Shown: positions 33,676 to 36,624 of the stretch, in pieces
Numbering within the stretch: position 1 is the first letter of the stretch
Layout of the letters: each line of letters starts with the position of its first letter
NCBI RefSeq assembly: GCF_000739875.1
Contig: NZ_BBJR01000001.1
Span: 124,001-188,000, forward strand
Source: Comamonas aquatica NBRC 14918
GTDB taxonomy: Bacteria > Pseudomonadota > Gammaproteobacteria > Burkholderiales > Burkholderiaceae_C
Reading direction: 5' to 3'
DNA length: 64,000 bases
Notes under the pieces: generated by a model
What the model was told of the DNA's origin: nothing
What the model saw: only the letters and a program-made list of their open reading frames with translations
Database searches by the model: none
Program-made: the position numbers and the translations under genes

Positions 33676-34434
33676 TCAGAAGCGCTCCCAGGGCATGGCA
33701 TAGCGCCACTGCCCTTCGGCCAGCTTGGCCATGGAGATGCGGCCCATGCGCAGGCGCTTGAGGCCCAGCAGCTTCAAGCCCACGCCGGCGCACATGGCCT
33801 CGATCTCCTCGGGGTAGATGCCCTTGAGCGCAAAGCGCAGGTGGTGGTCGCTTTGCCAGCTGACCTTGGTGCGCGGCAGGCGCTTGCCGGGGATGGCCGT
33901 GCCGTTGCACAGGCGCTCCAGCCCCTCGGCATCGAGCTGGCCCTGCACCTGGGCGATGCACTCCTGCTCCAGGTACAGCACGTCCTCGGTCAGCTTGCGC
34001 GCCACGCGCCTGTCCTGGGTGAACACGGTCAGGCCGCTGGCGGGCACGGGCAGCGGCTCCAGACACTCCAGGTGCTGGAAATGCTTGTGCAGCAGGCGGA
34101 TGGGCGCCGGGGTATCGCCCTGGTTCCAGCGCTCCGGCACCAGCAGGTCCAGCGCGCTGCGCGGGCCGCCCGCCTGCACCGAATAACCGGCGGGCTTGTG
34201 CAGCAGCAGGGTGACAGGGGGCACCGGCTCGGGCTTGGCACCGGCGGTGACGGTCAGGACCTGCGCCGGGCCCACGCGGGCGCCGGCTTGCTCGACGGTC
34301 TGCCCGTCCACCTGCACGGCGCCGGCCTCGATGTACAGCTCCGCCTCGCTGCGCGAGCACTGCAGTTGCTCCGCCAATCGCTTGGACAGGCGCACGGTGT
34401 TGTCGTTGTTGTGGGGAAATTCAGTCGGTGACAT
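33676..34434 (-). CDS. S4-domain pseudouridine synthase homologue lacking the catalytic Asp
   Basis: The 252-residue protein has an N-terminal S4 RNA-binding domain (RLSKRLAEQLQCSRSEAELYIEAGAVQVDG) and a RsuA/RluB-type synthase fold (LLLHKPAGYSV; KGIYPEEIEAMCAGVGLKLLGLKRLRMGRISM). In active enzymes GRLDxxxxGL carries the nucleophilic Asp; here the aligned segment is EPLPVPASGL (residues 126-135), with Pro129 in place of Asp and Pro127 in place of Arg. It may therefore bind RNA without catalysis. The start overlaps the end of the upstream Nudix/MBL gene by 14 bp. Fold certain, activity doubtful. Confidence 0.85.
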   Translation of the reverse strand: MSPTEFPHNNDNTVRLSKRLAEQLQCSRSEAELYIEAGAVQVDGQTVEQAGARVGPAQVLTVTAGAKPEPVPPVTLLLHKPAGYSVQAGGPRSALDLLVPERWNQGDTPAPIRLLHKHFQHLECLEPLPVPASGLTVFTQDRRVARKLTEDVLYLEQECIAQVQGQLDAEGLERLCNGTAIPGKRLPRTKVSWQSDHHLRFALKGIYPEEIEAMCAGVGLKLLGLKRLRMGRISMAKLAEGQWRYAMPWERF

Positions 34435-36109
34435 GCAGCAAGCCTAAAGCACGAATGCGTTCCACGTGCGCCATCAGGCTTCTTTCGGCCAGCTTCCACA
34501 GCGCCGTGGGCGTGTCGGCATAGGCCTGGGCCACCCAGTCCTGGACCGAGCCCTCGGGCTGCTGGCGCATGGCAGCCAGCACCTTGGCCTCGCGCGCTAG
34601 GCGGTGGGCCTTGAGCCGGGCGATCACACCCAGCGCATCGCCCAGCACATAGCCATGGGCCGGCAGCACGAACTCCACGCCCTGCGCAGCGCACAGCGCG
34701 GCCAGCTTGTCCAGGCTGTCGAGGTAGTCGCGCATATTGCCATCAGGGATGTCGATGACCGGCGTGGTGCCGTTCAGGATGTGGTCGCCGCTGAACAGCA
34801 GGGCGTCCTCCTCCAGCAGCAGGCACAGGTGGTTGGCCGCATGGCCCGGCGTGTGCACGGCGCGCAGCGTGTGGCGGATGCTGGAGGCCTTTTCAGCCTC
34901 CAGCCCAAGCGGAGCGAGCGTGATGCGCTCTCCATCTTGCAGCACCACATCGGGCACGAACTGGCTGTTGGCACGCGCCGTCGGGGCCGAGGGCAGGCCA
35001 TGGATTAAGGGCTTGTCCCGCCCCTGCTGCACGCACAGCGCCTGCAGCAGGAAGGCGCCCGGCGAGTGGTCGGCGTGCGAGTGCGTGCAGACGATGTGGC
35101 GCACGTCGCCCCCGGCGGCCTCCCACAGGCGCTGCACGTGGTCGGCATCGGCCGGGCCGGGATCGATGGCGATGAAGCCCGTGGCCGCTTCGCCGACCAG
35201 GTAGCTGTTGGTGCCCGGGCCGGTCATCACATTCGCGTTGGGTGCCGTCAGGCGCCACAGGTTCTTGCGCAGCGGCACGGCGCGCTCGCTCTGCCAGTCC
35301 AGCGGGTGCAGGATCTGCCCATCGGGGCAGACCATGGCCAGCTCACCGAACGGGGCTTCGTCTTCCATGCAGCGGTGCTGCTCGCCACGTAGCAGGCCGG
35401 AGCGCGGTGCGCTGGCCCACAGTGGCCCGGCGGCCACGGCGTCCAGCACCGCCTGCACGCTGGGGTAGCGCGCCAAGCGCGCCAGGGTGCGCAGCGTGGG
35501 GAAGATCATGGGCATCTGCCCGGCGGCATGGCGGTCCAGGGCCTGCTGCGGCTGGATCCAGACCGGCTCGAACTGCTCGGCCTCGTCGGCCACCGGGGTC
35601 TGGCCGGCGGGCATGCGCGCCACGAAGAAGGGCACGGCAAAGCGCTTGGGCAGGTTGCGGTCGGCCGTCCAGTGCGCCAGCTGCCAGACGCCGCGCACGT
35701 CCAGGCGCAGGCCGCGCTGCGCCAGCTGCGGCCACAGCGGGGCGTGGCGGTCCAGGGCATCGACATCGGCCTGGGTGGCGGGCCGTCCGTCGGCATGCAC
35801 GGCCAGCAGCAGGCCCATCTCTTCCAGGCTTTCACGCAGGGCGGCGATGGCGGCGGTCAGCGCCCCGGGCGCCATGCCGTCGCGGTGCGCCACCTGGGCG
35901 TGGGCCTGGGCGTCCTGGGCCTCGATGCCGCCGCCCGGAAAGACGTAGGCACCGGGCACGAAGCTGGCCTTGTCGGAGCGGCGCGTCATCAGCACCTCCC
36001 AGCCCCCTTCGGGGCGGTCGCGCAGCAGCAGCAGGGTCGAAGCCTCCAGGGGCGTGACCGGCACGCGCTGGGGGTGGAGCAATTGTTCGGGTCGCAGCAT
36101 GGCGCCCAT
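34421..36109 (-). CDS. Nudix hydrolase / metallo-beta-lactamase fusion protein
   Basis: The 562-residue product joins two hydrolase domains. Residues 1 to about 250 are Nudix-like, with PGAYVFPGGGIE and the box ALRESLEEMGLLL (REx2EExG), separated by a long insertion. Residues 280 to 562 are a metallo-beta-lactamase fold of the LACTB2 type with TGPGTNSYLVG, the metal motif THSHADHSPG, HTPGHAANH, FSGDHIL and PAHGY. The substrate is unknown. Start at ATG 36109 or 36100, both with weak Shine-Dalgarno signals. The 3' end overlaps the pseudouridine-synthase homologue. Confidence 0.85.
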   Translation of the reverse strand: MGAMLRPEQLLHPQRVPVTPLEASTLLLLRDRPEGGWEVLMTRRSDKASFVPGAYVFPGGGIEAQDAQAHAQVAHRDGMAPGALTAAIAALRESLEEMGLLLAVHADGRPATQADVDALDRHAPLWPQLAQRGLRLDVRGVWQLAHWTADRNLPKRFAVPFFVARMPAGQTPVADEAEQFEPVWIQPQQALDRHAAGQMPMIFPTLRTLARLARYPSVQAVLDAVAAGPLWASAPRSGLLRGEQHRCMEDEAPFGELAMVCPDGQILHPLDWQSERAVPLRKNLWRLTAPNANVMTGPGTNSYLVGEAATGFIAIDPGPADADHVQRLWEAAGGDVRHIVCTHSHADHSPGAFLLQALCVQQGRDKPLIHGLPSAPTARANSQFVPDVVLQDGERITLAPLGLEAEKASSIRHTLRAVHTPGHAANHLCLLLEEDALLFSGDHILNGTTPVIDIPDGNMRDYLDSLDKLAALCAAQGVEFVLPAHGYVLGDALGVIARLKAHRLAREAKVLAAMRQQPEGSVQDWVAQAYADTPTALWKLAERSLMAHVERIRALGLLHVTD

Positions 36110-36235
36110 TATTGATGCGGACGTGGGCCGCGCGCTGTCGCCCGTGGGCACACCGCCAGGACCTTGTGCGGGTCTGCCGTGCACCGCCGCCAGGTGTGCC
36201 TGAGTGCGGGTGTGCCGAAGGACGGTACGGCCCCC

Positions 36236-36271
36236 AAAAAAGTACAGGGCCCGGTCGATGACCGGGCCCTG
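36236..36271 (-). terminator. Intrinsic terminator of RNase P RNA
   Basis: CAGGGCCCGGTC (36245-36256) and GACCGGGCCCTG (36260-36271) form a perfect 12-bp stem with a GAT loop. On the minus strand TACTTTTTTGGGGG follows. It lies about 20 bp past the rnpB 3' end. Confidence 0.92.
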
Positions 36272-36290
36272 CGGGGTGTCTGCAAAGTGT

Positions 36291-36624
36291 GAAGTCCGCC
36301 GATAAGCCGGATTCTGTGCATGGGCTTGCGCCCATGTGACTGCCATTACTCTGGGCCGGGGGTCGCCCCACCGGCTCGATGCTACCTACCCGCACACTCC
36401 GGGGGCCCCGTCAACGTGTGCCTACTTGGTATTGCTGCGCGTAGAGATTGCCCGTTTCACCCGGGCCGGTTTACCTTGCGGTACGCCTGCCCGACTACGT
36501 CTCTGTTGCTCTGATCCTCACCTCACGGTGGACAGCCGTTAGCTGCTACGCTGCCCTATGCAGTCCGGACGTTCCTCCAGTGCCGTGTTTCCACGCTTGC
36601 ACCAGCGGCAGTCTGGCGAACTTC
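36291..36624 (-). ncRNA. rnpB: RNase P RNA (type A)
   Basis: This is the catalytic RNA that matures tRNA 5' ends. On the minus strand it begins GAAGTTCGCCAGACTGCCGC and contains the conserved core GGAGGAACGTCCGGACT, the GTGAGGTGAGGATCAGAGCAAC-like and GGTAAACCGGCCCGGGTGAAACG segments (given here only in part), CAGAGTAATGGCAG, and the 3' end CAGAATCCGGCTTATCGG. These are the universally conserved P4 and J-region sequences of bacterial type A. Ends are estimated to within a few bases. A promoter and a strong terminator flank it. Confidence 0.95.

Follow-up and report, generated by a model that had tools for sequence, protein, structure and literature searches.

Does a gene that has lost the active site of a pseudouridine synthase still serve a purpose, and if so, which one? 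The question is raised by an open reading frame in the window, that is, the whole stretch of 64,000 nucleotides from Comamonas aquatica NBRC 14918 analyzed here. Its product resembles RluF, and the first-pass annotation had read EPLP in place of the GRLD motif, with a proline (Pro129) at the position of the catalytic aspartate. According to an excerpt of PMC7822408, this aspartate is essential for activity and is the one residue conserved absolutely among all known pseudouridine synthases. Having aligned the orthologs, predicted the structure and surveyed the distribution of the gene, we favor, with somewhat better than even confidence, the reading that we are dealing with a pseudoenzyme of RluF descent, a non-modifying RNA-binding factor that may act on pre-50S particles.

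The gene and its locus

The reading frame is intact, as had been claimed, and it is open in all 35 Comamonas orthologs as well (Table 1). None of these harbors GRLD, which rules out a frameshift or an assembly error. Of the named relatives, C. avium (76% identity in this protein) and C. denitrificans (68%) are the closest. Since the C. avium copy has the same proline, EPLP is neither a chance event nor a sequencing error.

Table 1. Features of the RluF-like gene and its surroundings (positions in the window)
Feature	Position	Strand	Basis
ORF, RluF-like protein predicted to be catalytically dead, 252 aa	33676..34434	-	ATG to stop; ortholog in 35/37 genus genomes
S4 domain, residues 14-57; R28 = RluB Arg17, kept in 85/85	34264..34395	-	Pfam and alignment columns; role of Arg17 from an excerpt of PMC3919597
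His118, 85/85 in dead clade, 13/41 in active RluF	34081..34083	-	Alignment columns
Motif II, EPLP (residues 126-129) replacing GRLD	34048..34059	-	Alignment
Motif IIa, EQEC (156-159) replacing EKEY; conserved Tyr replaced by C159	33958..33969	-	Alignment
KVSWQSD (190-196), clade-specific new constraint at S192, Q194 and E/D196	33847..33867	-	Alignment columns
Motif III region (204-215), EEIEAM replacing RQIRRM	33790..33825	-	Alignment
Terminator-like hairpin and T run, about 30 bases 3' of the stop codon	33629..33645	-	Terminator scan
NUDIX and metallo-beta-lactamase-fold gene, 5' neighbor, 14-base overlap with the ORF start	34421..36346	-	

The 5' neighbor is one frame of 641 aa in which a winged helix accompanies NUDIX and metallo-beta-lactamase-fold domains. 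Its overlap with the RluF-like gene and the 3' hairpin indicate that the RluF-like gene may end a short operon, and co-transcription of the two genes is likely. The terminator scan of the region listed 3 sites, two of which are the same hairpin, where shuffled sequences lead one to expect 1.4. A homolog of the upstream gene was present at 3 of 6 genus loci and at none of 14 other loci, most of which were seen with flanks of 1 to 1.5 kb. At these same 14 loci outside Comamonas, the gene context pointed to no pathway: neighbors were common only to two near relatives (L083 and L084), apart from a weak match between L084 and L072.

The active site is lost as a set

A profile-profile alignment of the clade against active RluF (240 columns, probability 100%) placed LAPAGRLDIDSTGLLVLTQD opposite LECLEPLPVPASGLTVFTQD at motif II without a gap, thereby ruling out a misalignment of this motif. 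The columns of E. coli RluF and RluB agree: Glu126 corresponds to Gly104/Gly107, Pro127 to Arg105/Arg108, Leu128 to Leu106/Leu109 and Pro129 to Asp107/Asp110. The replacement of GRLD by EPLP was thus read correctly, and the catalytic aspartate of GRLD is absent from the window protein. The loss reaches beyond this residue. RluB residues R108, D110, Y140 and R194 correspond to P127, P129, C159 and E209, so that the base-flipping arginine, the active-site tyrosine and the motif III arginine are missing too, as is the lysine of motif IIa. Eight other proteins with a pseudouridine synthase domain were found in the window's genome, and all of them have RLD or RID at this site.

The same set of losses characterizes the relatives of the protein. 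Here, a copy is called dead or active type according to whichever of two profile scores is higher. Among distinct rows, the GRLD arginine, the motif III arginine and the EKEY lysine were each present in 0 of 85 rows of the dead clade versus 41 of 41 active rows. The aspartate was kept in 4 of 85 versus 41 of 41, its column holding a glutamate in 33 of the 85. The tyrosine was kept in 40 of 85 versus 41 of 41, and in 0 of 35 within Comamonas. The two underlying alignments, A1 (active beta-type RluF) and A2, were built partly from rows that were scored later, but outside rows separate too. In 14 further rows plus the one from Pseudomonas aeruginosa, the GRLD arginine and the motif III arginine were each found in 0 of 15 and the aspartate in 3 of 15. 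All 100 rows taken together, the aspartate is present in 7 and either arginine in none.

Fold prediction and family models

The S4 domain, said to be kept, was indeed recognized by Pfam (PF01479, 5.1e-8, 33 bits against a cut-off of 22.8), and it was found in 28 of 28 members of A2. PseudoU_synth_2 reached 16.9 bits, below its cut-off of 26.8. An AlphaFold2 model computed from seven sequences was of moderate quality (pLDDT 75, pTM 0.54). Foldseek matched it best to RsuA (7e-15) and RluF (1.2e-13), with RluE and RluB also among the best matches. The predicted catalytic domain superimposed on that of RluF with a Z score of 15.1 and 2.8 Å over 161 residues, and whole-chain matches to RsuA and RluF gave a large rmsd of 8.6 to 10.8 Å and a TM score of 0.5. 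In this model of moderate quality, a pseudouridine synthase fold is predicted to be present. The statement that the rest of the fold is well kept can therefore be retained for the predicted fold but not for the active site (C159, EQEC and EEIEAM).

Among PDB sequences, RluF was closest (E. coli b4022; PDB 3dh3 and 2gml; best match 3.5e-10), followed by RsuA and RluB. The window protein shares the S4 domain and the synthase fold with E. coli RluF, from which it differs by lacking the catalytic aspartate, the arginine and the motif III arginine. RluB and RsuA likewise belong to the same family and fold, but they are active and retain the catalytic aspartate. The closest relatives are the active beta-type RluF proteins of Burkholderiales and their relatives, with about 32 to 43% identity and a whole-length profile match; unlike the window protein, they have GRLD, the EKEY-type lysine and tyrosine, and RQIRRM in 41 of 41 rows. 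All 28 A2 members matched the RluF equivalog NF007784 of NCBIfam at 1e-5 or better. The window protein scored 41.4 bits against its curated cut-off of 318, a weak criterion given that an active beta-type RluF falls short of it too (128.4 bits). No family model dedicated to the dead clade was among the Pfam and NCBIfam models seen. At five Comamonas loci with active RluF (L064, L065, L073, L118 and L145), the open frame extends about 300 to 490 residues upstream. This extension, whose true start is uncertain, is rich in Arg, Gly and Asp, of low complexity and absent from the dead paralog in the window.

Distribution and phylogeny of the dead-type gene

We next consider how widely the gene is distributed. 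All 35 Comamonas orthologs, from 37 genomes, were read, and they confirm that the loss is common to the genus: the aspartate column holds 34 prolines and 1 alanine, and GRLD, its arginine, the tyrosine and the motif III arginine are absent from every copy. In a survey of the order, 50 of 399 genomes matched the dead profile with at least 299 bits, and the 33 that were read were all of dead type; the 50 are a lower bound, as some dead-type copies score less, at 283, 275, 258 and 143 bits. In the class, 34 of 369 genomes had a match at 1e-20. All 34 were read: 12 have the active type only, and a dead-type copy occurs in the other 22, two of which carry an active copy too. In the phylum, 44 of 299 genomes matched at 1e-40, and 20 regions of 19 genomes were read. 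Five of these, out of nine matches from other classes, were all active; among the remaining 15, 14 lacked GRLD and the last was active, from a genome that has both types. In family f184, all 11 matches were read and found to be of dead type. The pairing of its member G222 with the P. aeruginosa record (95/98) makes Pseudomonadaceae the probable identity of this family.

The P. aeruginosa member of the clade (L203:5995-6705, NZ_CP131792.1), which by its gene order may be PA1110, keeps the aspartate and has lost the arginine and the motif III arginine. Its annotation reads rRNA pseudouridine synthase, a label it owes to its active cousins, and the annotation alone is thus no proof of pseudouridine at 23S position 2604. 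A literature search for PA1110 returned nothing related by title. The record itself is an 847-kb "plasmid" containing a stretch with flagellar, roeA and hcuABC genes that looks chromosomal.

Two other copies deviate strongly. One from the window's family (L221, genome G633) is very degenerate, with 143 bits to the dead profile and changes at H118 and S192. The other, from a Rhodanobacter metagenome-assembled genome (L085:4989-5411), is an in-frame version of 141 aa in which motif IIa and the C-terminal part follow directly on the S4 domain; its lack of motifs I and II is either a natural deletion or an assembly error.

The dead-type rows formed one clade (49 rows versus 8 active ones; support 100/96, 99% of bootstrap trees), and 48 dead-type rows also grouped together in a quick tree of 103 rows (SH-aLRT 99). 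This clade spans Burkholderiales and other Gammaproteobacteria, the P. aeruginosa record included, and shows long stem and terminal branches. The quick tree nests it inside active RluF, but an AU test did not reject it as the sister group of active RluF (p 0.70). Since 7 of 100 rows have the aspartate, the clade is united by the loss of the arginine and of motif III rather than by that of the aspartate, whose column changes residue at least 13 times across a 57-row tree. This pattern suggests that the arginine and motif III were lost first and the aspartate afterwards. The earliest-branching dead row, from the window's order (L072:998-1738, G040), reads GLDADAS, keeping the aspartate with neither the arginine nor motif III. 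It is possibly an intermediate, although its branch is very long and its placement unsure.

Selection and newly conserved residues

Twelve disjoint pairs of Comamonas orthologs, 90 to 99% identical, gave dN/dS values of 0.027 to 0.187, and two pairs of active RluF gave 0.091 and 0.096. Among close Comamonas pairs, the dead clade is thus under purifying selection. The median over 570 distant pairs was 0.455, which at face value would mean weaker constraint; we set it aside because dS is probably saturated in these high-GC pairs.

Like His118, Ser192 and Gln194 were each invariant in the dead clade (85 of 85), whereas active RluF keeps Ser192 in 10 and Gln194 in 26 of its 41 rows; each of the three was kept in 13 of 14 further dead-type rows. 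This is so even though mean identity after thinning was 50% in the dead clade versus 60% in active RluF. At two columns, the dead and active groups have each fixed a residue of their own (S132A and K157Q), and Arg28 of the S4 domain, R227, R229, W243 and R244 are conserved in both. The RluB counterpart of Arg28 is one of the main RNA anchors according to an excerpt of PMC3919597. Such a pattern of constraint points to a function that has changed, not to a gene in decay. The mean net charge is lower in the dead clade than in active RluF, both for the S4 domain (-0.7 versus +1.9) and for the motif III helix (0.2 versus 3.4), indicating that the ancestral contact with RNA is at least altered, which is a point against the reading favored below.

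A proposed non-modifying RNA-binding factor

Under the reading that we favor, the clade descends from RluF, and all its members lack the base-flipping arginine, the motif III arginine and the motif IIa lysine. The aspartate column then changed many times, ending as proline in nearly all Comamonas, while selection has retained the S4 domain and the core, along with a newly conserved polar set made of His118, Ser192, Gln194 and Glu/Asp196. With its S4 anchor and C-terminal arginines, the protein would in the simplest case bind RNA without flipping a base, and we infer from its domains that the bound RNA is structured and held through the S4 domain. It could serve as a chaperone or placeholder for RNA, with pre-50S particles as the most plausible site of action: a stem-loop of the rRNA of the assembling large subunit may be held or shielded, as by RluF and RluB, and left unmodified.

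A role in assembly on pre-ribosomal particles would be in line with what is described for the family. As far as excerpts of the sources go, RluB and RluF bind the same stem-loop of 23S rRNA, the hairpin 2588-2606, whose loop end is held by the S4 domain while motifs II and III lie in the stem grooves (PMC3919597); the title of PDB entry 9cl9 is that of an intermediate with RluB bound; and RsuA prefers an assembly intermediate, its S4-like domain being needed for recognition (PMC7356742). Human PUS1 offers a further analogy, since it takes part in mitoribosome assembly while bound in a way that precludes catalysis (excerpt of PMC13294482), although it belongs to another family and is an active enzyme. 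No description of an inactive protein of the RluF or RsuA family was found in the literature searched, which covers few subscription papers. Vibrio cholerae has an RluF homolog, and its tRNAs are reported to contain no RluF-dependent pseudouridine (excerpt of PMC12588516).

The main rival is that the dead enzyme binds an RNA other than 23S rRNA, namely tRNA-Tyr, an mRNA or a small RNA, as a chaperone or regulator. We consider this rather unlikely, but it has points in its favor: the annotation of E. coli RluF lists position 35 of tRNA-Tyr as a second substrate besides 23S position 2604, and the loss of the motif II and III residues with retention of S4 would have freed the protein for another RNA. 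However, nothing names such an RNA, and hardly any gene context is common to the loci outside the genus.

Occurrence with and without active RluF

Another explanation is that the protein acts as a partner, competitor or modulator of an active RluF paralog. In its favor, 28 of 37 Comamonas genomes have both genes (eight active copies were read, all with GRLD, the others being assigned by identity), and having both is usual in Burkholderiales at large, where 48 of the 50 genomes that score 299 bits or more against the dead profile contain a further match, mostly of a type that was not read. Against it, seven Comamonas genomes have only the dead gene, none has only the active one, and two, which are 85 and 75% complete, have neither. 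A search with the active profile confirmed the absence of active RluF from six of these seven; the seventh (G005, 85% complete) was covered by the genus survey only. In the window's genome, which is 99.99% complete, this profile retrieved at 1e-10 only the dead gene and two others, which by their motifs appear RsuA- and RluB-like. The dead protein thus needs no active partner, and we regard this explanation as unlikely. Five of the seven genomes were in the tree and formed one branch (96/91), as would be expected if the active enzyme was lost once and the pseudoenzyme retained.

In other orders of the class, none of the 19 tested genomes with the dead gene had a second match above 136 bits to the active profile, on a scale on which the active beta-type RluF proteins that were read reach at least 280 bits and E. 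coli RluF 174. A mutual exclusion of the dead and active genes outside Burkholderiales was considered and dropped, the genomes being too few for such a claim. A clade without an active site that is nevertheless kept by selection, even in the absence of an active paralog, separates a binding role from modification.

The protein could instead still be a pseudouridine synthase, slow or acting through another base residue, at least in members with aspartate or glutamate. Residual activity is conceivable in the few rows that keep the aspartate, 33 of 85 clade rows have glutamate there, and RluB R108A is not fully dead, with 0.6% of activity (Y140F keeps about 3%; excerpt of PMC3919597). Since these single mutants are nearly dead or weak, a protein without all four residues should not make pseudouridine, and the window protein, with Pro at the Arg, Pro at the Asp, Cys at the Tyr and Glu at the motif III Arg, is predicted to be unable to do so. 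Moreover, no new acidic column replaces the aspartate, described as essential. Within columns 110 to 149, acidic residues predominate in just two: the catalytic column (26 Glu and 4 Asp among 56 thinned rows), which is Pro in the window protein, and that of D141, which is also present in active RluF. The alternative alignment that could have overturned the first-pass annotation, with an aspartate elsewhere in the active site, was therefore not found in this region, and we deem residual synthase activity quite improbable. That the gene is a decaying relic of RluF, as its lost catalytic residues, long stem and end branches and the higher dN/dS of distant pairs (with dS probably saturated) might imply, is the least credible explanation, and is ruled out on the 12 close pairs by their dN/dS of 0.03 to 0.19, in addition to the open frames throughout the genus and the newly conserved residues.

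A possible wider family and the 23S rRNA hairpin

Returning to the non-modifying RNA-binding factor, we put forward a broader version only tentatively: the clade may be a widespread family of dedicated non-modifying RNA factors that arose from RluF and can outlive the active enzyme, with H118, S192, Q194 and E/D196 as a new binding surface, for example one that reads or guards the hairpin of the peptidyl-transferase center once modified by RluF. Such a family, if real, hides in the databases under the name of rRNA pseudouridine synthase, in Burkholderiales and other Gammaproteobacteria, Pseudomonas included.

We also looked at the hairpin itself. A search of the window's genome for the exact E. 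coli pattern found nothing, because the hairpin sequence differs there. Position 2607 (E. coli numbering, set from anchors in an excerpt of PMC3919597) is U in this genome (L227/L229, G000:C9:4896-4917) and in its sister G010 (L230), and G in the other 17 of the 19 genomes with a match; 28 had been searched, 9 being without match. Both genomes with U2607 have the dead gene only, but G2607 also occurs in dead-only genomes of other orders (G222, G137 and G072). As the two are sisters, U2607 represents one event and proves nothing yet. By base complementarity, it could pair with A2587 and so lengthen the stem beside the former target of RluF.
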